Source: Sanderia malayensis
Lineage: Eukaryota > Cnidaria > Scyphozoa > Semaeostomeae > Pelagiidae
Direction of reading: 5' to 3'
NCBI GenBank assembly: GCA_013076295.1
Contig: RQOL01000536.1
Coordinates: forward strand, 1 to 64,000
DNA: 64,000 nucleotides
The notes beneath the pieces were generated by a model. That model did not search any database. It saw only the letters and a program-made list of their open reading frames with translations, and was not told the DNA's origin. Shown here one piece after another: positions 17,979 to 34,719 of this stretch (position 1 is its first letter; each line of letters opens with the position of its first letter). The translations under genes were made by a program, and so were the position numbers.

Positions 17979-20900
17979 ATGGACGTTCTCCACGAGGTTA
18001 GTACAATACATAATTCCGAATAATAAATCGTAATGTTTGATTATTCTGTTGAATTATTGTTATATTTTTTTCTACCCTACTTTTATTGGCCACTGCAAAG
18101 TTACACTATGATAAGGTGATGTAAATAGGCCTAAGCTAAAATTATTAGACAAGTCAGTACGCTTATCATCTCATCGAGTCAATTCTCAAATCAAATTTTA
18201 GAAGTCTAAAGTATCTATATATGTACAAAAATAATATATAAAGTAATGAGCTTCTGAATAAACAAAATTTATCTAATGGTTTGCTGTAAATATAATTTGC
18301 TTACACGTACGCAATAGCCACAGTGGGTTCTAATAATACAGTATTTTATGGATAGATAGATACATAGTTGGTAAATCAAATTATTTTTTAGGGTTATCTT
18401 GAGAAGTGTTTGAACCCAGATGAAAATAAGAGAGAATGGAAAAAGCGATATTTTGTTTTGAAGAAGGCAATTGGCAGTGGTACACAAACTTTTGAATATT
18501 ATAAGGAGAAAGAATGGAGAAAACAAGAGCCGAAAGGTGTCCTGACACTTTTTGCTGGTTACACAACAGTAAAGGTTAATGATCCAAAGAAGAAGCATAC
18601 ATTTGAAGTGAAAACAATTGATGGTTTTTTTACATTATCTGCTGGTACGGAAGAATCAAGAGATACATGGTTAGAAACACTTAGACAGCATTCTGCAGGT
18701 CTGATGTACAAAACATTTATTTATCTCTTGTGTGATATTTTGTGATTCATACAGTTGTCTTTGACAATGCAAACTTTCATTTGTTTAATTTCAGGCAAGA
18801 TTTTCAATATTACTTTGGAAGTAACAGCCAAATCAAAGGAACTTGACATAGCAAATGAACAATGTGCACTACAAATAACATCTTCAAGTGTTTTATTGCT
18901 TCTTGGCTCAGGTCCTGCAATCTCGTGGCCCTTTAATTGCATTCGGAGGTACAAATGCCATCCTGGCATCTTCTTACTTGAAGTTGGAAGAAAAGCACCC
19001 ACTGGAGAAGGGGAGTTTCGCTTTATTACTCAAGAGGGGCAAGATATTTTTGAAATTCTAGGAAAGGCAGTCTCCAATCGTATGAGTGCCAAAAGGGGAA
19101 ATGACTATCAACCTGATTTTATTTCTAACCCTTCTTCACAAGCTGCAGTAGACCAGGACACAAGTGGCTCTGCAGGTCAAGTGACAAATATTGCAAAAGG
19201 AAACATGTTTATTGACCAGGTAGGAAGAAGTGACAACATTAGGTTTGTTATGAAAAAGCGCAGCACATCATCGCCACCTACTTCTTTATCAGGAGAACAA
19301 GCCATGAATCAGGCTGTAGCACCCCCCAGTGCTGGTGCAGGTGAAAATTATTCTCATCTGAAATTTTCTCCGGACAAAGGCAGAACTCGATCAGAAGAAG
19401 ATCAAGACTATGACCAACTTGCTAGAGCCAAAGATTGCAATCGATTCAACAAGACAAGGGTGTCTGATAGCAGGAATCCCAGTGCTTCAAGCAACAAGGC
19501 ACTAAAGGTGCTTGGACTGCTGAGGTCAAATAGTGTGGATAGCTTACCAAGGACACAGACAGAGTCCGCAATGCCAGAAGCATCAGAAGGCTATGCTCAT
19601 CTGGAATTTAATGACAAAAAAATGAAGAAAAGTCAATCGTCTGATGTGCTAATGGATGAGCTAAAGAATGCTGCATCAAATCTAAAGCATCGGCCGGACA
19701 ATGTTTTTGATAAACAAGATGATGATGGTGTATTCCTTCAAAATGATAATGTCTACAATAAGTTGCATTCAGAAAGACCCAAAGCCGCTGATGTGCAAGT
19801 TGAAGATAATCTTTGCCAGGACGCTTTCGCATCTGAAAATGCTTATGATTGTCTTGGAGCTAAACAAAATGGTCATTCTCACCGACCCAGACCAGAGCCA
19901 ATCATCGTAACGGATGATGCTTATGATGCTCTATCTTTTGGTTTTGAGAAAGCGCTTCCAGACACCAAGGTGCAAAAGCCTGCAATATCCAACACATACG
20001 AAGAAGCCATACTCGTAAAACCAAGAAATGATAATTCCGTTAATGACAGGTTGGCCTCCGATTCAGGAATTGATAAAGCACGCAAAAATATTGAAGCTAA
20101 AATTATGGCAAAGCCTGCACCTCCAGTTGGCATGAAGCCTGCACCCCCAATTGCCACAAAACCTGCACCTCAGATTATGACAAAGCCATCGGTGGCTAGA
20201 AAACCAGCGAAGCCACCACGAAAGACAACCCAGCCAGCAAGTGAAGACATTTTGTATGAGAATACCGCAAATCAAAGCCCTGGAGGAGCAGTGCAGGATG
20301 TGGTCGGTGGTGACGTCAAAAGCAATCTCGTTGCTCAGTTGAAGAAGAATCTCCAAGGGCAAGGAATCTTATCAGGTGCTCGTCCATTAAGTCCGCCACC
20401 AAACGCGAAGAATAACCCAGTTCAGCCATTTTATGCAGTCTCTCCTTTCACCCGTGCAGGCAGTAATAAAGAAGCTCAGCACAGCGAATACAACAGACCA
20501 CCCGCTTCAAGTGAATACGCTGTACCGTCCAATAATCCTCCTTCGATGCCTAGAACAAGCCCCAAACAGATGGACTTCATGTATGCAGTGTCACCGTTTC
20601 ACGGTGGAGCCCAATTAGAAGCCAGTCATCATGAAGCAGAGAGTTTATACGACTCTCCAAAACAGCAACGGCCTATTCATGATGATGAAAACGTGTATGA
20701 TACACCCGTGCCGCAACGTTTTGACAACAACGAGAGTATTTACGATATGCCGGTTCAGCATCATCGTGGTGAGCACCAAGACGTCATCGGGAAACCTAGG
20801 CCTGCAGCTGTGGCGAGTACCAACAGCCCAAACTCCAATGCATCCGGTAAATTCATGTATGCCGTATCTCCGTTTGCTGCTTGTCATGCAATGCCTGACA

Positions 20901-21094
20901 GCCAACAAGGCTCTTATGACGATGTCGGTGGTGTAGTGGATGGAGGGTGCGTTGATGAGGCAGACTATTGCGAAGTTGGAACATTGGTGAGAAAGTTCCC
21001 ACCCGCTGACTATGCTGAGGTGGGAGAAACATTCAATTCAACCAGCCGAGATTCTGAGTCGATTTACAGCGTTCCAAGAGGCGAGCCAAGGTAG
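17979..21094 (+). CDS. Dok-family adaptor B (PH + PTB, long Tyr-rich tail)
   Basis: Exons 17979-17996, 18392-18698 and 18795-21094 give 874 codons with consistent phases. Exon 1 encodes MDVLHE, mirroring MDVIHK of the upstream gene with the same phase-0 junction, so the two are tandem duplicates. PH domain residues ~7-108 (GYLEKC, REWKKRYFVLKK, TWLETLRQ); IRS-type PTB ~109-205 (ISWPFNCIRRY, GIFLLEVGRKAPTGEGEF). The tail of about 670 residues in one exon carries YDSP, YDTP and YDMP (YxxP, SH2-type sites), three copies of YAVSPF, ADYCEVG/ADYAEVG and a KPAPP-type proline-rich repeat around residue 450 suited to SH3 binding. This is the layout of Dok/IRS docking proteins acting below receptor tyrosine kinases at the membrane. 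It lacks the frame break of its neighbour, so it may be the working copy. Confidence 0.9.
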
Positions 21095-22206: not shown

Positions 22207-22215
22207 TTGAGAACT
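22207..22215. repeat. Left 9-bp target duplication of element 1
   Basis: TTGAGAACT, repeated exactly at 34711-34719. Confidence 0.9.
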
Positions 22216-22325
22216 TAGTCTCACTACATAATCCCCTTGCTTCCCTGTGCTCTATTTCATATCGCTGCGCTGCTTTTCAGGAATAAACCCTTCTTAAAAT
22301 AAGCCAGTTACCAACCAATTTTTTC
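22216..22325 (+). repeat. Left TIR of element 1
   Basis: Near-perfect for the first ~50 bp with the right end, then diverged in a 35-bp middle block, then matching again through TTAAAATAAGCCAG and ACCAACCAATTT. It lies ~140 bp before the transposase ATG and could carry its promoter. Confidence 0.9.
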
Positions 22326-22462
22326 TTACAACGAATGTCATTGCAACTCCAATGAACACGAAACCGAGGCCCGATCAAATATTTTAACTTGTTTTGTTTT
22401 GTTTAGGCCTAGTAGTGACTGAAAGTTTTAACATTAGTAACGACAAAGTTATAGGTATTGAA

Positions 22463-25400
22463 ATGAGCTCTGATGAAGACTCTGATGATATTTCGTTAAA
22501 AGATGAAAGTACAGGGTTACCAATACTCTTACTTGGAGCAGAGGAGCCAATTCCCAAGTATGAGCATGTTCTAGTTCCGTCACGGATTGCGACTGGACGC
22601 AAAAGGCCGGGAACTGTAATTCATCGCAGGAGCAGGACTGCTGTTGATGAGAGAGGACGCAATGTTTCTACCTCCGACGATGATGTGCATTCTCCAATAC
22701 TGTCAGAATCCGGGAGTGAGGGAGAAGTCCAAGAAAGTGGAACAGTAACTCCACTTCTTCCTGCCCATGAAACTGTTGCTGATGGTGGTATGTTCACATT
22801 TATTTATTGTCATATGCTGTGAACATTTAATTGTTGGTTATATATATTCTACAGCAGCTTTTTTTGTTATTTTTTTAGATGATACTAATCCACCTTGGGA
22901 GTTTGCAGATGATTTAAATGATGCATCAGATGTGGTGGTAAAGAGCAAAACAAGCTTGGCAGTTTTTTTGCCAAGCTTGTCAACCAAATTGATTTAGAGC
23001 ATAAACACTGTATAAAATGTCATACTTTTTCTGATTTGCAGGTCAGTAGTGAAGTGAGTGATCTATACTGCATAATGGTTTTGCAAGCAAAATCTTTTTT
23101 GAAAATTGATGCCAATGCAATGATATTTTTGATACAAGATTTTGATGTTGCACAAAAAATGCTGAAGGTAGACAAATTCATGCAGTCTCTACAGTTAAAC
23201 ATTTTTAGACAAATTTTTACATCTACATATTAATCAGCCAGACCAGACCCATAAGGCATCACACTGAATATAATTGATGTGATTTGATAAACTTATTATT
23301 TTATTTTATTAGATTCGTAGATTTCAAGTCCTTCAAAGAATTTTGTTTAAGCTTAACAGTGGTGATGCTTGGATACTTTCCTGCTCGTGTAGTAAAAGTC
23401 ACGAAAAATATGTAAATACTTTGGATAAAACATTAAATGTTGATTACGAGGGTATGACTTACTACTAATTGTTTTTATTTTATTGTTATGCCTTACATAG
23501 AAGCTTGCATTACTTCAAAATATATGTTTCAAATCTTTTCCTTTGCTCTTCTATGTTTGTAGGGTTGAGAAAGATTGTCAATGAGCATTACAAAGAATGT
23601 TTACATGTTGTTGTGGGTTATGACCTTATTAACATCTCTGACTCATTAAATGATGTTGATCCATTCCAAGTCATTCCAGGTGACTATTTTATAAAGTTGT
23701 ATTTTTGCATTTTTGTGTCTTCAACAATCCTATCATAGATTTTCTGATGACAATATTTTTTAGGTGCTGGTCCTGAACATGCATATGTCAAAGTAAATAA
23801 CAAGTTCTTCTGAGAGTTCTGATCGGTTACGGTTATTTAAATGTCTGATATCAATCAAATTTTTGTAGACTGTTGTCTTTAAAATTGTTTTTACGATTCT
23901 TGACTTTGTAGGAACTGCCAGTTGTTAGCGAATTGCCATTTTCTGCTGCAGAGCTCATATTGGTGAAGCCAAAAGATAAACCTTTTGCTGTTGTGGGTTG
24001 TGACAGGAAAGGGTTTGTTTGTTACCAGTGCAGTATAGGAAAGCATTCTTGTTTCCATATTAGCTCCTTACAGGCATACTTGAAAATTCACACAGAAAGT
24101 ATACCTGATTTTGTTCTTGAATTTGTGGACAAATGCAACCAGCTTTCTCAGTCTTGTATAAAGAGTAAATTTGTAAAGCCTCTGTCGCAAGGAAGGATTG
24201 CTTGGTGCACCACAGAGAGGCAAAAGAGGATTTATACACTGTCATCTCAAACAATGGAAAATGTTTTGGATGATGGTTCAATGGCTCTATTGCCTCTCGA
24301 TCATAACTGCATAGTTTGCAATGGTGAAATGTCCATTGTTCGGAAATTTGACACCTCTTCAAAACAACTTCTACTTTGGGCAAATGTAATTAAAGTTACA
24401 GGTGATTTTTTGTGATATTTCAATAACTCAGACAATATTGCTGTATCTTTTGTTGAACAAAGTTGAATCTAAATTTGCAAATCATTCTTTTGTATAGTTT
24501 TTGCTCGTGAATGTACTGTATGTGGACATGTTAGGATTTACGATGGCTCTGCCAATGGTATTCGAAATATGGGCTCTTTCTTGATTGGCCATGATGTCTT
24601 GAGAGATTATCTAAACATTTTCCTTACTGGAAGCAGGTAAATTATATCTGGGTTACTTGTGTAATATTCTTGAAACCACAAATTACTTCATTGATTTTTT
24701 ATAATGTTATCAGTTGTAGCATGGTTGGTTTTCATGAAAAGTGGAAGCTAAATTACGATGCGGCAGGTCAATCACAAAGTTTTATGATTAATTATCATCA
24801 ATTGCGCTTTTCCTGGTATGCATACCTTAGTCTGCTCGATATTGACTACAGCAGTGGCTTTGTTTGTGACAAATGTGGTCAATTCCCTGATGTAATCACT
24901 TGCGATGCAACGTCTCTTGGGTTCCGAAGGATATTTAGCCGTAGTCAATTTGTTTCATCTGCAGCAAGGATTGGACCAAGAAATGCTTTAAAAGGAAGAT
25001 AAGTAGCTCTTGATGTTTTTTTATACCATTATTCGACGAAGAATAGTTTTTTTACTTTTATAGTTACGAGACTGACCAATCTATACTCGCATTTACGTTT
25101 ATCTAAACTCGACTTTATTTGGCTTTACTAGTTTTAAAGTGAGAGTTTTGTTGGACAATAAAGAGTGCAGAGACCTTTTAACAGCCTATGCAGAGGGCAA
25201 TGATAAGATGTTGCAAGTTGCCCGTATGAAAGCACTGCTTCAACAGCATTGTCGTCCAGTTGCTGTATTTGTCACCTGGTGTGAAGAAACATTTGAGAGA
25301 CCTGACCTTTTCCCGCTACCAATAAAGAACTTTTTGCAGTGTATAGCGTCAGTGTCGCCAGTCTGCTCTTACTTCCCAGAAAGTAATGTTTTTAGTGACC

Positions 25401-26595
25401 TCTTGCAGGACATCAAGTCTGGGCTTGATATAACGAAATTCCCAGACAAGTTACATCGACTGCAGTGTTCTGCCCCTATTATCTTTGGCGTTATTTCGCA
25501 TTTTCCAGAGAGAACTCCCCCTGTGTCCGCATTGCAACTATTTGCCATGCTAGAAGAAAAGGTGGAGAAAACTTTTCAGCGACAACCCCATTTTCTTGAA
25601 CCAGCCAACGAAGAAGAGCAAGGTACAGAATTTTCATTTTTGCCGAAATGGCCGAGAAAAACGCAAAGAGGAATCTATTTTCAGGATTTGCAGGGTTCCA
25701 AAAAGCACGATAGTGTCACCTGTAATAAAGATTATCGAGGTCACCCTACTCTCATGCCAGGAATTTTCACTTTGTATTGTAAACATGGTATGGTTTACTT
25801 TTGTCATTTTACATTTGCCTTTATGTTTAGCAGTCAGTAGCAGATATTTTCAAATAATAACTTTACTGGTGTATGTTGCAGATATATGCTATGGATTTGA
25901 CGTGCTAGAATCACAGGAATCTCCAAACGTGCCATTCACGATATTTCGTACACGCTTCCCAATTGGTTTGTTAAATTTTGTCAACAATGTGTGGGTTTTA
26001 AGATTATTTTGTGCAATGTCCATTTCCATTATTGATCATAAATTGTTGAAATTTGTTTTTCCAGCACCAGAAACTGTTATTTATGACAATAGTTGTCATC
26101 TCCAGGATTATTGTTTAAACCGCGATCCTGGCTTCTTTAAAAATACAATATTTCTAGTTGATCGATTTCATTGGAAGAATCATAAAGGTTAATTTTTTGC
26201 ATATCCAATTTATAATTTCATTTCCATGTTTTAAGTCGATAAAAGAATGTAGAATCGAAGGCTATCAAAAATTGCTCTACATTATGTTTTATTATATTTC
26301 AGCTTGTGCCAAGAGCTTCCAATTGGATATCTATCCTCAATTTGACCGTCTTAACAGTCAAATTAACGAACAAAGAAACGCGCAACTAAAACATGTTAAG
26401 GGTCAACTCAGTTACATGAATCCGTCTAATTTCGTACACCATTGTAGATTAATACTTTGGTATTGTAACATGAAAACCATAAGTCCGCTCATGCATCCAA
26501 TAACTGAAAACACTTTTTTCAATATTTCAATTCATTCTTTTTTAGTTATATTATCTTATTTTTTATTGTTTTGCTCGAATTTTTCAATGTTGTAA
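22463..26595 (+). CDS. KDZ/Zisupton-type transposase (one broken splice donor)
   Basis: Thirteen exons: 22463-22787, 22879-22937, 23042-23167, 23313-23451, 23563-23679, 23764-23792, 23912-24401, 24498-24636, 24714-24998, 25132-25787, 25882-25965, 26065-26187, 26303-26595; 2,865 nt = 954 aa, all phases agreeing. Ser/Asp-rich N-terminus; Cys/His clusters (SCSCSKSH; CYQCSIGKHSCFH, SWIM-like; CIVC; CTVCGH); then the transposase fold with candidate catalytic Asp in TCDATSLGF, Asp in VIYDNSCHL and Glu in NSQINEQRN, plus VDRFHWKNH and HHCRLILWYC. These match the KDZ-type transposase core, also found in HMGXB3-like host proteins. It would cut at the TIRs and integrate the element. The donor after exon 9 reads AG|ATAAGT rather than GTAAGT; without that splice the frame ends in TAA. 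The start could lie upstream in an unseen exon. A domesticated host gene is less likely because target-duplicated TIRs enclose it. Confidence 0.8.
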
Positions 26596-27790
26596 ATTGT
26601 TTTTTTATTACATTTAACTTGAGGTTAATTTTTGAATTGGAAAGCAGTCGCTTCTCGCAAGACTTGATTGCTGATAACTAATTGGATTCTCGATTTGCTT
26701 TTTTATTTGTTTTGATCTGACTCAATGGACTCTTTATTCAAAGATAACTCTCATTATACCACCACAAAGTATGGTTACTATCGCAACCAAAATGGGTGAA
26801 CCCGTGCGTATAAATTGGAGTTTTATCTGAACCCGATGAAGATTTGTTGTTGTCTCGGCATTATGGTGCCAAGTCTAAGCTACACGTGTTTGATTTGTTT
26901 GGACTGAATTTATCATGGATAACTGCAAAGAAGTATCAGAGCGGTAGGACATATGAAATATTCTACTTTCCCTTTAAATATTGTAGACAATATATTGTTC
27001 GATGTAATGTATATTTTATTCAATTGGAACCATGCGCTTAGCAACCCGGTTTTTTAAATCATTTTTGCCACGCCACGGCCATGCAAATAGTGGGGTTCGT
27101 TCAGGAAGGCAACATTGCATAAAGCCCAAAATGTCAGAAAATTATATGAACTAAATAGAAATTTACATTTGATGATAAATTCGGAAATGATGCAAACAAT
27201 CATGAATGTTTAATGATACACTGACGAAAGTAAACCCCCAAAATATTGCATGAATACACCTTTTTTATTTAGGACTTACCTCATGTCTATTTTTTCAAAG
27301 TTCCATATATTTGGACTTGCCTTGACCACATTGAGGTTCTTCACATATGATGACCAAGAATAGCATCTATGCAACAGCAGCTTTGATGCTCACACTTTAA
27401 AAAAAAGAATTGTGGTTGAGTACAATGACTTCGAAAGCGAGAAAGTTTATCTAAAAATTACAATGTGCAGTTTGGCTCTAAATTGCTAGCACATATGTGA
27501 TTTTAAGTTTTTGCGGAGATAAAATTATTCAATTTCAAAGAGTTTTTCAACAACAATTCCGTTTTCAGTACTATAAATTCTTTAAGATTGTGTATATGCA
27601 GATGTTTACAATATGCTCTCCACATGCAGACCTTCTTCAACAAAGTTTTTTTCCAAAAAAGTACGTTTCTGAGTTATAGCTACTTATAATAAAGCTACTT
27701 TTATATTTTAATTTCCTGCTTTCTAGTTTGTGTCGTTTTAATTATCACTAACAATAATTTGAGAGGCAATAAACCCAGAATAGCTATATT
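26596..27790. other. Non-coding interior of element 1
   Basis: Transposase 3' region. AATAAA motifs near 27685 and 27769. No coding sequence seen. Confidence 0.5.
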
Positions 27791-27793
27791 GCA

Positions 27794-27831
27794 TTAGGGT
27801 TAGGGTTAGGGTTAGGGTTAGGGTTAGGGTT
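27794..27831 (+). repeat. Interstitial telomeric repeat (TTAGGG)6
   Basis: Six perfect TTAGGG units plus TT. It is the standard metazoan telomere sequence, here internal to element 1 and 8 bp before a pogo-like end at 27839. Confidence 0.97.
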
Positions 27832-27838
27832 GGCATTG

Positions 27839-27915
27839 CAGTCGAACCTCGCTATCTCGAACTTGCACAAGAATTGAAAATTTCTTCGATATGGCGGGAG
27901 CTCGAGATATCTGGA
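27839..27915 (+). mobile_element. Pogo/Tigger-like terminus fragment
   Basis: CAGTCGAACCTCGCTATCTC followed by further CGAGATATC-type blocks matches pogo-superfamily ends. No opposite end was found, so this is a fragment. Confidence 0.5.
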
Positions 27916-28127
27916 CTATTACCATCTCAACTTACCCAAACTCTGGGCGAAACGTTACACTTGTTGATGTTGTTCCTCCCACCTTTATTATTATGTATAT
28001 ACAGAAAACGCACTAAAATTGCATCTAATGTCCCAAGAACATTGCATTACACTTTAATCACTTCACAAAGTTAATGAATCCAGTTCATATTATTGCTTTT
28101 TACGTAAACATGAATGTAAGTCATTTT

Positions 28128-29500
28128 CAGTGGCGTAGCCAGAGCGGGAAGATTGGGGGGGGGCAAACAGGTAAGAAAAATAGCAGGGGGTCCGGGAATC
28201 TTCCCCCGGAAAAATTTAAGACCTCGCCTCTTAGAATGCTGGAAAACGGCTCTTTTTAGATGACTTATAATGAGCTATGCCATTTGTATATGTCGAAGTT
28301 TGGTTAATCAAACGTCAAAACAAAAATTTTTGCATTACCATTCCTCTCAAGTATTATTTTCTGATGAATCTTATCAGGCGAGAAATTTCTATGTTGAAAA
28401 ACTGTTTTCCAAAGACGCAAGTAAACGTTTATATATATCAATTATATATATATTATATAAAGTCTTAAACTAAGTCCATTCTCCTAGGAGCACACCGCAA
28501 AGCCTTTAACTTTCTTTCCATGGTAGACTGACGGAAACATGAGAGAAGATTTTCAAATAATATACAGTGGAATCCCGCTATAACGAACTCTGTAGGGACC
28601 GAGAAAATAGTTCGCAATAGCGGGAGTTCGTTGTACAGAAGGGACATTTTTATGAAGAATTCCAAACACAAATGGGCCAGAATGTCTGTTGGACCCTCCC
28701 TCAAGTATTCGCGCTTAAGTGGCACTTCCAAAAAACAGTTTACAAGATGACAACAGTTATTGCTCTGATAGATTGCAACAGGAAAAAACGCTCAAGCATG
28801 TTTGACAATGAAACATCACAAAGCAAAGTCGATATTACCACTTAATGTCAATTTTTGCATTACTATTTCTATTTTATCTACTATTATTTCTTTCTGCTCT
28901 GTTAAACAAAAAATATCAGTGATATGTTTTCTTTCCTTTTTGTTTTTACGTTTTGTTCCTACGTCATATAATTTCGAAAGGGTATTGATCTTCTTCGCAT
29001 TTCGTTCCCTATTTCCGCACAAAAAAGGCTTGATGTTTGAAGTCCACCCAGAGCTTGAAAAACTTCACCCTTGAGCTTGAAAAGCTTCACCCTTCGCGAT
29101 AGGTTTTCGCAAAATTGGTTATACCGAGGGTATTTGTGGTCAGGGGATCGGAAGCTTGGTTCGTAATAACGAAAGTTCGTTATATCCAGGGTTCGTTACA
29201 CAGGGAGTATTTACAGTAGGATTCACTTCCCAGAATCCAAGGGACCGGAGTTTTACTTCGTAATAGCGGGAAGTTCGTCATAAGCGGGGTTCGTTATAGC
29301 GGGATTCCACTGTACTGTTTTCTTTTTCTGTTGTTTCATTGTATGTTTCATATATTATCAATTTTTTGGCAAATGAAGCCTTGTTTTTTTGTTGTACCCC
29401 CCTACAAATTTTATTGCAGATTTGAACTTTTCTCAGAGACCAACTTTCTGCGAATTGGGGGGGCGGCTGCCCCCCCTTGCCCCCCCTCGCTACGCTACTG
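28128..29500. mobile_element. hAT-type element nested in element 1
   Basis: Ends CAGTGGCGTAGCCAG and, reverse complemented, CAGTAGCGTAGCGAGG, with an exact 8-bp duplication GTCATTTT at 28120-28127 and 29501-29508. G-rich blocks lie just inside both ends. 1,373 bp, of which 748 bp is a second, pogo-like insertion. No transposase. Confidence 0.9.
28565..29312. mobile_element. Pogo/Tigger-like element nested in the hAT element
   Basis: Inverted ends CAGTGGAATCCCGCTATAAC with TA on each side (28563-28564, 29313-29314). Inner parts repeat the TTCG..ATAGCGGGA-type motif several times on both arms. 748 bp, no complete ORF. Three-level nesting (pogo in hAT in KDZ). Confidence 0.88.
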
Positions 29501-29514
29501 GTCATTTTCCGAAT

Positions 29515-31245
29515 CACATTTCCAATAAAATGAAACTTGTTACATAGTTCACAACTAGCAGCAAAGAGTTCAGAATACAAAGAAAACATAATTTTGTTGG
29601 TACAGTCATTATCTAGACTGCCCCTTAGCTCTAATGTTTATGTTTTCAAACCAATCTCTTTATTTTCATTGCAAGACTTAAAGTTATTTGGACCATTCTT
29701 TTTTTGCAAACATTTTCGTTATCTTCAATTTTTCTTTAGTTTAATATAGCAAATGTCGTCTTCGTGTATCCAAATAATAAAATAGTATTTTAATACATGG
29801 TAATACAATGTTATGTGACTTACCACTTATCTTTCTTTAGCAAAGTCTTAGTCTTGTAGTCCATCGGCGTGACAAATACCTTTAACAAATGCCGTGTATT
29901 CTAAAAGTCGCAATGCTTAAATCTACCAGTCATGTCCCAAGACACACGCTTCCATGATTTCACTGGAATGTATAATTGGGTTGAATCCCGAGAAAATTCT
30001 AAACGTAAATGATGATATTGAATAGCCCTTCATAAAAGTCATTTGTGTACCCTTGTATAACTGAATTATTTTACTTCTCAAGAGGCTGTGGCATTTATAT
30101 GCAGTGAATTGTCAAAGGATCGGCAAAGGGGTCAAATAATGAGTAAAACACAATTAAATTTCAGATTTATTTGTAATTATGTGCATAAAACCAGACAATA
30201 TATTATTACATACTTGTAATTATGTGCACAAAACCAAACAATATATTATTATTAGATTAATGTATACCATATCTCTCACAACCATCGGAAAGTTGAAATA
30301 AAATCAAAGTAATATTTATTAGGTATTTATCAATATTAATAAATTTCTAAATATGAATAAAAAAACATTATCTGAATATATTATGATGTAATCTGGAATA
30401 AAATAATTAAAGCAACCATATATTTGATTAATTAAATATAGGCTATAAAATGCTAGTTTAAAAAATATAAAACTACGATAGCCAAAAATTTAACAAACTT
30501 AGTACTAAGCTCGATGAATTTTATAAAACTGTAAAAGTTTTGTTCTCGAAGACAAACACATTGACTTGAAAAAGGCATGGCCTCGGTAATATCAAAGATT
30601 TTGTTGATTTTTGTCGGAAAATAATTATATTTAAAGATATCGATTCGGGCAAGCAATTTAACAATGAATAGTATCACCAGAAGCTTCATGTTAGGAAAAC
30701 ATGAGAACACTTAAACGTTTTCCTAACATGAAGCTTCTGGTGATACTATTCATTGTAAAATAATTATAGTTTTCAAATCTGAGCTGCATGTGCTTCTTCT
30801 CAACGATTTGGGATTTTTATCAATCCAAATATGGTCAGCTGTAAAGAAATGAGGCAGTTTTAAATCCGGAAAATAAAAAGCCGATTAAGAAACATAACTA
30901 CCAAAACGCTATAATTGTCGTGCCAAATTAAGAAAGTTGAAAGTGCTGAAAATGCTGATCCGAAAATCTTATGAAAAATGGGTGTATTTTATAAGAAATC
31001 AGTCCCTACCAGGCCAGTTGATGTCAAAATATAGCTAATATTATGTGATGCATTTTTCTTCAAAATTATGGAGTATTTATAGCATTTCAGCATCTACGTT
31101 AAAGTCGATCTCAATAGCTAATGTTTTGAGTAAAAAATGTTTTTTATAATAAAATTATACTGTATTGATACTCCTTCTTCACAAACAATGTAGCTAATGT
31201 TTGACATATTTATTCTAGTATTGAGTATTCTTACCAGCACTTCTT
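29515..31245. other. Non-coding interior of element 1
   Basis: AT-rich, no coding sequence recognised apart from a weak minus-strand frame at 30453-30710 beginning with a hydrophobic stretch (MKLLVILFIVKLLA), not accepted as a gene. Two copies of a GTGCA.AAAACCA.ACAATATATT block occur at about 30180 and 30220. Confidence 0.45.
30661..30756. repeat. Perfect 40-bp hairpin
   Basis: Arms 30661-30700 and 30717-30756 are exact reverse complements around a 16-nt loop. Too perfect to be old. Possible sources are a recent local inverted duplication, a hairpin RNA precursor or an assembly fold-back artefact. Confidence 0.9.
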
Positions 31246-33940
31246 CTAATGTTCCTGAACAGAATTCTTCTGCATAATAATACGCTTGGCGCAAATTAGC
31301 GGCACTTTCTCCTCAAGATGCAAAAGAAATGCCAAAACCTATGAAGAATGAGGATGGAAATACACGAAATGATATCGATAGGAAAAATTGGCAGAGATAC
31401 AGGTAATTGGAAACAAAATGTAACAGTCTATTTACCTCAGCGAACAGGACAATTTTGACGAGATATGAGTACTTGTCTGCTGCAAATCCTGTGGCACTCG
31501 GTATGCCAGCAGTTGCATCCAAAAAATATCTCATAAAGCTTCTTTCCTAAAATTTGAATTGACGTTGTGCTGCTACATAATACTCAAAACATCAAATAGA
31601 ACAATATATCAATAGATCAATATAAAGATCAATTATGCAAAACAAGTAAATACTCCTACCATGTCGTCACTACCAAGAAGCCAATAGAAATTAAAAAAAC
31701 CCTCGAAAAATAAATCGTTCTTTCCAATTTCAAAGATATCCATTCTTTTCGATGGTACCTTTCTCTTCACAATCCCAACAGCGTATTTCTAAAAAAATGC
31801 AATTGGAAGATATATAAATTGAACACGCACGTCACTTGCAACATGCTATTAACTTTATTTCCCTTACAACATACCTTAATTTCTGCATCCCATCGTCGAA
31901 ACATCTCTTTTAAACTTTCATCCGATCTAAACTTTTGAATTCTAAAAATGAAAACGTAGTTATAAATCATTGAGTATCGAATATTGCTATCGAAGTATGT
32001 GGATGTCACACATGACAGAAACTGTATAGATAGGATTGCAACAGGATTTACCCTTGCATCTCACTAGATTTGACATTGCACCCACACTTCCAAGTTCCCG
32101 GAATTTGTGAGACACTTTCTGAAACGCAAGCTTTATGAAAATGTGACTTGCAGTCAACACAACCAATACAAGATAGGTCCATCTGGAAAAGTCGTTGCAA
32201 TATTGCCTGGGGAAACACAACACAATTCAACCCAGCTGAACATGTTTCTGTCTTTGAACAAGTACAATCAGTAGTGCTTTGAATGCCTTCGCCTATCGGC
32301 ACGACAACTGTGTTGTCAATGTTGGGCTCAGCAAGCTCTGGTGGCGCTACTGCTCCAATGAATTGGATGCATGAATCCAAGACATGATCCATCTCATCAA
32401 CTCTCATTGATGGATTTCTACAATTTGGACTGCGAAATAAAATTTTGGGTTCAACATCAGGCCACCATGCTGGTTTCTTAGCTTCTTTCCAATTCGCTTG
32501 ATTCTTCATATCTAAAATTACAATATAGATTGATTAATGAATGACATGGGCATAGGAACTGGAGGGTGGGGGGGGGGGCTTTTTTGGCAAACTATGCAAA
32601 GCTGTTTTTTCAAACCCAAAAGTGCCTCCTCTAAGTTCAAAAGTAATTGGCCTCGGAGTGGTTATGTGCCCCCCGATTTGACCTCGGTTCCCACTTTCCC
32701 ACTTTTTAAATGCTTCTTGTGTCCCTAATATAGCACAGTATGGGTTGTATAGCAACATTAATGGTGCTCATGCCCAAATACAACCAAAACATACCAATTC
32801 CAGTGATGATTTGTGAGATCAATTTTCGCTTTCTGCCAATTGAAAATGAATGAACATTCTGTGTTGTCAAAACGTCCACAATTTTGTCATCAATACCTAT
32901 TTTGAATAAAAAAATAATTTACAATCCTGTGTACACTATCCAAATCACATTCAACCTGTTCAGTAAGGGATTCCAAAATGTCTTGAAGGTTCAAAGAAAG
33001 TCAATGGCAATATCATAAATTAAAGTAAGTGAAATAAAAAGTTCTGTTTCTACCAGATTCCTCAGCTATATCATCTTCTTCTCCTTCATCGTTAAAATCG
33101 ACACCATCAGCTTTCATTCCCTCAAGTACAATGGAGGTAAACTTCTTTGCCACACTCTTACTTTTGCCAAAGGCTTCAAACTGTTTTGGACCTTAAATCA
33201 ATGAAAATCAAATTTAGTTTACCAAAGACCCTATCTTCACATTACTAACATCTAATAATTTAGCAATATAAATAATAGAGCAAATTTAAAATTTGGAAAC
33301 TACAATTCAATTTAACAAGAAGAGTTTCTACTAACCTGAATACTTTACACACAATTGGCCATCATTTGTTTTTACTAGTGTCAATGCCAGAGTTGGTGTT
33401 TTTGTTCTGTTATACCACTTTGTGAGCTTTAAATTATAATAAAATCAAAACCGTAAACTTACTGCTTGGAAACAGTATCACTGATATAAATTTAATGTCT
33501 TTTGCACCTGCACAGTGTTCTAAAGTAATAAATTAACTCACCATAGCATTCAAAGAGGACATTTTAGAAGTATCAAGCTTTCTTCGTGCAGATCTATTCT
33601 TGATAAATTCATTATCTGTTCTAATTCTCTGAAATGACAAGACAGTAATGAAAAGTTAAACCACATCACAATGATTATAAATAAAACAACAATTACAACA
33701 ATACAATGTAAACATATTATAATATATAAACATTAGTAATAAAAATGATAATAAAAAATTATGGAAGGGGTATTTGAACCACATGGGACATGTTGAAAGA
33801 ATATCCACAATTTATCATCATATCATACATACCCTTTTCTTTTGAGGTGCTGAAATTATATCAACATCAACAGATTGTGCATTTTCATCAATAGTTACTT
33901 CAGATTGCACATCGTGATGAAAGGTCGAACTTGAAGCCAT
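31246..33940 (-). CDS. Accessory gene of element 1, PHD-like zinc finger protein
   Basis: Minus-strand exons (high to low): 33940-33833, 33628-33542, 33426-33336, 33191-33054, 32896-32795, 32511-32052, 31941-31875, 31788-31660, 31546-31436, then a possible last exon 31338-31246; phases agree and give ~461 aa. ATG has A at -3. Basic N-terminus (PQKKR; NRSARRK) suggests a nuclear protein; a conserved-looking W..AKKPAWWPDVEP block starts exon 6. Cys-rich region: CTCSKTETC, then CIGC-x2-C-x3-HFHKAC and GTWKCGC, the spacing of a PHD finger, which reads histone tails or DNA-bound chromatin. The C-terminal part (FEGFFNFYWLLGSDDM; RYFLDATAGIPSATGF) is not recognised. The end is uncertain: another frame at 31315-31240 reads more like protein. 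Position inside the TIRs, convergent with the transposase, suggests an accessory transposition factor. Confidence 0.65.
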
Positions 33941-34600
33941 TGTTGTTAACTCGAATATATATAAAACTGTACACTACTGAACACTGATAATGCTAACTGT
34001 ATAATAAAATAATAATATGTAACTTGTATATACACTGATTTTCTGATAAATACGCTAATCTGATCAAAAACACTCACAAAACAGATGCAAAAATGCAATC
34101 ACAAAATACCAAGCAAAGCAAATAGATTACATGGTCGTCTTTGGATGAAATAATTCTAATCTGAATGACCCAATGCAGAAGAACATTAGTAAAACGTGCG
34201 AGCCTGATATTTTTTGCACGGAAGGAAGTTCCAAATGATAAAGTTTCCCGCCAAAAATTCACTGAAAATAAAATATTTTATATTTCTATAATAGGCAAAC
34301 ATGCATGCAACTGTAACTAATTTCTTCAATTTAAACTGCACTTTAAAAATATCATATAAATTACTACTTCTTATGCCTTACTGTCTATTCTTCAACCTTT
34401 CCCTACCCCTTGTTGGGCGCCGTGCCACGTGTAGGTGGGGTAGAAGAAGCAAGTTTCAAATTTTTCCCGCTAAAATTTTCGAAATAATTTTGCTCTGCAT
34501 CCCCTAGCCCGTCAAACTGCGGCTCCACGGAACTTCCTAAACCATGTAACCTGAGGCCCCTTTTGTGCCAGCGCTCATGCTCATAACGAGTATTTGTCAA
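33941..34600. other. Non-coding between accessory gene and right TIR
   Basis: Upstream region of the minus-strand accessory gene; likely its promoter and 5' UTR. No other gene seen. Confidence 0.45.
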
Positions 34601-34601
34601 A

Positions 34602-34710
34602 GAGAAATTGGTTGGTAGCTGGCTTATTTTAAGAGTGATTTATACCTCTGCTTTTCCGTAGCGATATGAAATAGAGCACAGGGAAGCAAGGGGATTATGT
34701 AGTGAGACTA
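34602..34710 (-). repeat. Right TIR of element 1
   Basis: Inverted partner of 22216-22325. Its outer end is 40 bp from the UBR4 ATG, so it now forms the UBR4 promoter-proximal or 5' UTR sequence. Confidence 0.9.
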
Positions 34711-34719
34711 TTGAGAACT
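34711..34719. repeat. Right 9-bp target duplication of element 1
   Basis: TTGAGAACT, identical to 22207-22215. Confidence 0.9.

Follow-up and report, generated by a model that had tools for sequence, protein, structure and literature searches.

The window analysed here is a stretch of 64,000 nucleotides from the jellyfish Sanderia malayensis (contig RQOL01000536.1, forward strand). At positions 22216-34710 it holds a 12.5-kb block bounded by matching inverted ends. The initial annotation described this block as one complete KDZ/Zisupton-type transposon with terminal inverted repeats (TIRs) of ~110 bp and a 9-bp target duplication. We find that it is two elements, an inner KDZ-type transposon nested in a 117-bp palindromic repeat; the boundaries first proposed combine parts of an insertion and of the repeat that it entered, and the long TIR is made of two arm pairs that are the ends of two different elements. 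The inner element carries a spliced transposase gene on the plus strand and a second gene on the minus strand, whose product appears to be NRF1-like in its N-terminal half. We consider it likely that the inner element (22278-34648) is a two-gene cut-and-paste KDZ transposon, that its second protein is an NRF1-type DNA-binding partner and that the element lies in an older repeat.

Two nested elements and their ends

The features that define the two elements are the following.

22207..22215: TTGAGAACT, 9-bp duplication on the left of the outer element; 9 of 9 positions match 34711-34719
22216..22269, plus strand: left arm of the outer palindromic or fold-back repeat, the target of the inner element
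22271..22277: TGCTTTT, 7-bp target-site duplication on the left of the inner element
22278..34648, plus strand: the inner KDZ-type element itself, with ends CAGG...CCTC; 12,371 bp, later insertions counted
22279..22321, plus strand: left TIR of the inner element
34605..34647, minus strand: right TIR of the inner element
34649..34655: TGCTTTT, target-site duplication on the right of the inner element
34657..34710, minus strand: right arm of the outer repeat
34711..34719: TTGAGAACT, exact 9-bp duplication on the right of the outer element

The outer arms are 54 bp long with 98% identity, the inner TIRs 43 bp with 88% identity. Between the two arm pairs lies a second duplication, CTGCTTTTC, which is a literal 9-bp match (22270-22278 and 34648-34656). 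In the genome assembly (184,004,477 bases in 918 contigs), copies of the inner element start or stop at the inner arm (CAGG/GAGG) and have unrelated flanks. Both outer ends are present in 12 of 20 fetched stretches, as short or fold-back elements that lack the inner part. Because of these outer-only copies, the unrelated flanks of other inner ends and the position of CTGCTTTTC, we place the inner element within the outer repeat. The same observations bear on another reading, in which one KDZ element of 12.5 kb has TIRs of ~110 bp, made a 9-bp duplication and took over its outer 60 bp from a short repeat when the two exchanged ends. It would explain why the arms are near-continuously symmetric and why the outer duplication is exact. 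We give it almost no credence, since beyond the inner ends that stop at CAGG/GAGG and the duplication that parts the arm pairs, the outer arms alone form elements of 108-134 bp with duplications matching at 7 to 9 of 9 positions (L028, L032, L036), and the flanks of the inner element, when joined, yield a comparable 117-bp element, resembling L032 (108 bp) and L036 (113 bp). Further copies, a check set by the initial annotation, exist separately for the outer and for the inner ends; none of the fetched stretches has both pairs.

Fold-back and MITE-type (miniature inverted-repeat transposable element) repeats with 9-bp duplications are a recognised kind of element. The outer repeat is similar to them: it is palindromic, spans 108 bp to 1.8 kb (with one member of 4.1 kb) and makes 9-bp duplications, and the long members are inverted duplicates (L029-L031, L037, L038). 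An own transposase was sought in these five long members, which gave no match in tblastn against the proteins collected and no open frame above 127 amino acids, hence no detected encoded protein. The duplication is exact at 8 of 13 outer elements (12 fetched loci and the window). The inexact cases match at 8 of 9 positions (L031), 7 of 9 (L032, L033) and 5 of 9 (L038); L039 matches at none in register and over 8 bp if shifted by one base. L034 and L035 may represent one event, because their duplications are mutually reverse-complementary. The 9-bp duplication TTGAGAACT reported before is exact, but it belongs to the outer repeat and not to the KDZ element.

For the inner element, comparison of copies is best read as ends CAGG...CCTC with a duplication of 7 bp. 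A C precedes AGG at three independent left ends (the window, C686 and C675/C289, the last two counted once for their common flanks), and a C likewise comes after the right tip, at four independent ends (the window, C630, C317, C303). In a diverged family of about 8.6 kb, family B (C726, C569, C571), this C is found at 4/4 left and 3/3 right ends. Its duplications ATTTCAA and GTTTCGC are exact, CAAACTG in a third copy is off by one base, and in one family-B copy the duplication is exactly 7 bp. An inner duplication of 9 bp was dropped in favour of 7 bp, since the flanking C at independent ends belongs to the element. Some copies speak against these ends: in five (C616 twice, C630 twice, C120), which have a left flank in common, the left tip is missing as far as 22291, and on the right both C616 copies end in the same altered sequence, AATTATAAATC, which has no terminal C. 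Among the inner-element copies fetched, only the one in the window has both ends intact. In a further family, G, the two fetched ends begin with GAGC; they were compared on the gene-2 side only.

We propose that the 117-bp repeat would have inserted first, creating the 9-bp duplication, and that the KDZ-superfamily element would then have entered it and duplicated TGCTTTT (7 bp). In PMC12730594, Zisupton and Dileera are described with 8-bp target duplications, and two Kyakuja families with 7-bp duplications, CA..TG ends and no TIRs. With 7 bp by copy comparison, the inner element departs from the 8 bp given there for Zisupton and Dileera, so that the assignment to Zisupton in the narrow sense was not upheld. 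It shares the 7-bp duplication with the two Kyakuja families of that account, but differs from them in having TIRs and CAGG..CCTC ends.

The transposase and its AT-donor intron

The transposase gene was resolved as follows.

22463..26595, plus strand: KDZ-type transposase gene, 13 exons
22463-22787, 22879-22937, 23042-23167, 23313-23451, 23563-23679, 23764-23792, 23912-24401, plus strand: exons 1-7
24498-24636, 24714-24998, 25129(or 25132)-25787, 25882-25965, 26065-26187, 26303-26595, plus strand: exons 8-13
24999..25128, plus strand: intron with AT donor (AAG/ATAAGT), probably AT-AC
D539 (24904), D825 (26085), E881 (26368) and C828/H853/H857/C860, plus strand: catalytic and metal residues

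A protein search returned 38 homologues, the best from Rhopilema esculentum (42%). When 24 of these were scanned against Pfam (E<=0.01), 12 matched PF18758 (KDZ; best 3.3e-10) and 15 matched PF18717 (CxC4); the homologue P0001 matched neither. The residues D539, D825, E881, C828, H853, H857 and C860 are identical in 9/9 aligned sequences, and across the 24 homologues the D-D-E and C-H-H-C columns are invariant, with the last C at 90% or more. The metal site has the pattern C-H3-H2-C and a cysteine pair precedes the first D. In a structure model of P0001, D548 lies on a strand, D832 just past a strand and E888 on a helix, with a helical insertion following the first strand. Structural comparison returned matches of RNase H transposase/integrase type and of middling strength; absence of a family from the VIA-align structure list does not exclude that family. 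The protein shares with the KDZ superfamily (Kyakuja-Dileera-Zisupton, PF18758) a homologous transposase, the cysteine cluster, the D-D-E residues and the metal ligands, which bears out the KDZ-type assignment made at first. By homology, this D-D-E transposase would cut and join the DNA.

Several results weigh against this assignment. The profile search, proposed earlier as a check, reaches KDZ through the homologues and not from the window protein itself, which matches no Pfam family above cut-off and no KDZ at E<=1. A Pfam scan of seven single open reading frames (ORFs) gave no KDZ match, Foldseek with the transposase gave no match at E <0.4, and none of the 140 matches of a genome search with PF18758 falls on the window element. 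These 140 exon-level matches (E<=1) are spread across the assembly, which suggests many further KDZ lineages in the same genome.

Recognition of the exon 2/3 splice removed the need for a supposed frameshift in exon 2. The remaining eleven introns of the window gene are GT-AG. The AT donor at 24999 occurs not only in the window: all four other copies that span the intron have it, as do two family-B copies at the same place. For this reason, a recent donor mutation following exon 9 was dropped as an explanation. The AC acceptor is kept in 3/4 other window-family copies and reads AT in the decayed C630a. As a modest further argument, the AC-acceptor reading LKGSSFKVRV aligns gap-free to LKGSDFSDRV of P0001. 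The comparison of copies indicates that the intron is probably AT-AC, which gives a protein of 955 amino acids. The spliced plus-strand gene described before is present, and its length of 954 amino acids would need AT-AG, likewise with a non-GT donor at 24999. An AT-donor intron retained between diverged mobile genes is an additional oddity of this system.

The second gene and its pairing with KDZ-type transposases

The second gene faces the transposase from the other end of the element.

31246..33940, minus strand: second gene (gene 2), 10 exons, 461 amino acids; putative NRF1-like DNA-binding half, PHD-like finger and C-terminal region

The opposite-strand PHD-like gene of the initial annotation is real, and several diverged KDZ families of this genome have it; what had been overlooked is an N-terminal half that appears NRF1-like. 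The ten-exon model is identical to the EukProt protein P0039 (gene6453-7185_t). P0039 is a gene prediction, probably from the same species, so the identity is not proof of expression. The relatives other than P0041 (see below) bear names of the same EukProt style. A catalogued protein, P0040, has pieces of a gene-2 relative fused to other sequence that includes PF00076, an RNA-recognition motif, and is probably a merged gene model.

Gene 2 aligns collinearly with NRF1 over about 165 residues that include the motif KPxWWP. The NRF1 base contacts given in PMC10810270 are R206, N242 and R244. With NRF1 numbering transferred by hand, gene 2 of the window has R at the R206 and R244 positions, N242 is not conserved, and family B has K in place of R244. 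Compared with NRF1/Erect wing (PF10491, PDB 8k4l), gene 2 hence shares the collinear DNA-binding half, the KPxWWP motif and both arginines, but lacks N242, stays below the Pfam cut-off, adds a PHD-like finger and a C-terminal region and is borne by a transposon. A direct pairwise comparison with NRF1 gave 91%, a figure that does not stem from a library search.

The link appears firmer through intermediate sequences than through the direct scores. A genome search with PF10491 returned the host NRF1 gene (C479:2475304-2475936) and 12 further short matches, 7 of which exceed the cut-off, one of them only jointly with its neighbours. Three of the 12 places were fetched (L076, L077, L078) and two tested: L076 scores 21.6 bits (1.9e-4, below cut-off) and L078 25.5 bits (1.3e-5, above cut-off) with PF10491, and the two reach 35 and 27 bits, respectively, with a gene-2 profile, values that 0/2000 shuffles attain. 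The L076-type exon (C483:66380-66780) is multicopy: among its 18 matches, eight places agree with one another at 91-100% and the others are at 36-48%; it is perhaps part of another mobile element or a KDZ branch.

Against the NRF1 likeness stand the direct scores. Gene 2 obtains 17.4-18.1 bits with PF10491, below the curated cut-off of 23.5, and only one of four gene-2 sequences reaches PF10491 at E<=1. A 71-residue NRF1 stretch scores 9.7 bits against a short gene-2 profile, which one of 2000 shuffles equals. The PHD-like middle is also under the Pfam cut-off, and the AF2 model of gene 2 has a pLDDT of 34. Two protein searches found one gene-2 relative from another source, P0041. By eye, only two of the 12 PF10491 places (C483:66458, C784:148605) lie less than 10 kb from a KDZ match, and neither is convergent. 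The N-terminal half might instead be no kin of NRF1, with KPxWWP a short motif that arose by convergence in some other helical DNA binder, of the YDR124W type. PF11001 (YDR124W-like) does match the same stretch (E 0.004-0.03), and direct NRF1 scores are weak. We judge this reading improbable in view of the long collinear alignment with its two contact positions (PMC10810270) and of intermediates that match both sides; L078 matches PF11001 as well as PF10491, so that the two families may themselves be related.

The pairing of both genes is not limited to the window. Matches were merged by hand to 31 transposase places and 28 gene-2 places. A gene-2 place lies within 20 kb of 15/31 transposase places, and a transposase place within 20 kb of 15/28 gene-2 places. 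Fourteen of these pairs are within 14 kb, all 14 convergent, and the paired transposases go down to 34-45% identity with that of the window over the matched exon. Five of the 14 belong to the window family, and four (C571 twice, C655, C478) look like one family. Counted by eye and with family B, there would be about five or six independent paired families.

Other places fit this pattern less well. The genome search detected no relative of gene 2 less than 20 kb away from 16/31 transposase places. Such searches score best candidates only, so unpaired places are not shown to be without gene 2; two of the 16, the family-B copies on C726 and C569, have gene 2 in the same order by direct alignment. 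At C350, the gene-2 place is 15.9 kb away and on the same strand, and at C675:4842374 (+) a first exon of gene 2 is separated by about 3 kb from PF18758 matches, again on the same strand. Among the 14 pairs, several are backed by just one or two short, weak matches to gene 2 (E 1e-6 to 1e-3), and several stem from a single family.

Comparison of other copies with the window gave a dN/dS of 0.27-0.35 in gene 1 (five copies; C317 without data) and of 0.22-0.47 in gene 2 (five copies; C120 without data), and the window models of both genes are open reading frames. In three pairs among the other copies, both genes have a ratio of around 1 or higher. These copies are interrupted by frameshifts and stops, and several such lesions are common to more than one copy; since the lesions are shared, the five values are largely one comparison and not independent. 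If the second gene were a passenger, host DNA caught between the ends and not a working part of the transposon, its resemblance to a chromatin or transcription factor, the presence of an own NRF1 gene in the host and the origin of gene-2 relatives almost only from the same genome would be accounted for. A convergent relative at 14/31 transposase places and in two family-B copies, beside such diverged transposases, and ratios below 0.5 between copies make the passenger explanation quite unlikely.

Two-gene transposons are known from PIF/Harbinger, which encodes a transposase and a Myb-like DNA-binding protein. The inner element likewise combines a transposase with a separate, putative DNA-binding protein, and to our knowledge the proteins of the two systems are unrelated. 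As a partner of the transposase, the second protein, with its NRF1-type binder and PHD-like finger, may bind element ends or promoters and may read chromatin, as its domains and the constancy of the pair suggest. By analogy with partner proteins of other two-gene transposons, it could guide, assemble or protect the element.

The KDZ companion gene reported in fungi, according to PMC12730594, is a TET/JBP dioxygenase, while that of the inner element is NRF1/PHD-like. No description of a pairing between a KDZ transposase and an NRF1-like gene was found in the literature searched; an earlier mention in Iyer et al. 2014 is possible. The full-length two-gene element with TIRs that had been proposed holds for the inner element, which has other copies in the genome, and a recurrent second gene of a non-TET/JBP kind in an animal genome offers a testable two-protein transposition system.

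A further step is speculative, and we hold it only tentatively: the DNA-binding domain of NRF1 could descend from, or share ancestry with, a partner protein of KDZ-type transposons, of which the elements described here would be the living donor lineage. We know of no explanation for the origin of NRF1, an animal transcription factor. A link between the transposon protein and NRF1, if true, would bear on that origin.

Later insertions and neighbouring features

Two further elements lie between the genes.

28128..29500: hAT-like non-autonomous insertion, CAGTGGCGTAGC..., with 8-bp duplication GTCATTTT
28565..29312: TA-flanked element nested in the hAT-like insertion, with inverted repeat CAGTGGAATCCCGCTATAACGAAC

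The hAT-like insertion is not present in the five other copies that cover its place and is therefore later than the KDZ element. The nesting reaches a depth of four: outer repeat, KDZ element, hAT-like insertion and TA-flanked element. A 45-bp hairpin repeat (98%) at 30656-30761 is not found in L019 and L021, which align on both sides of it. A short run of TTAGGG-type, telomere-like repeats lies inside the KDZ element at 27794-27832. Upstream of the block, a long open frame at 18746-21094 is rich in tyrosine motifs and presumably belongs to a host gene resembling docking proteins (DOK/IRS-like).

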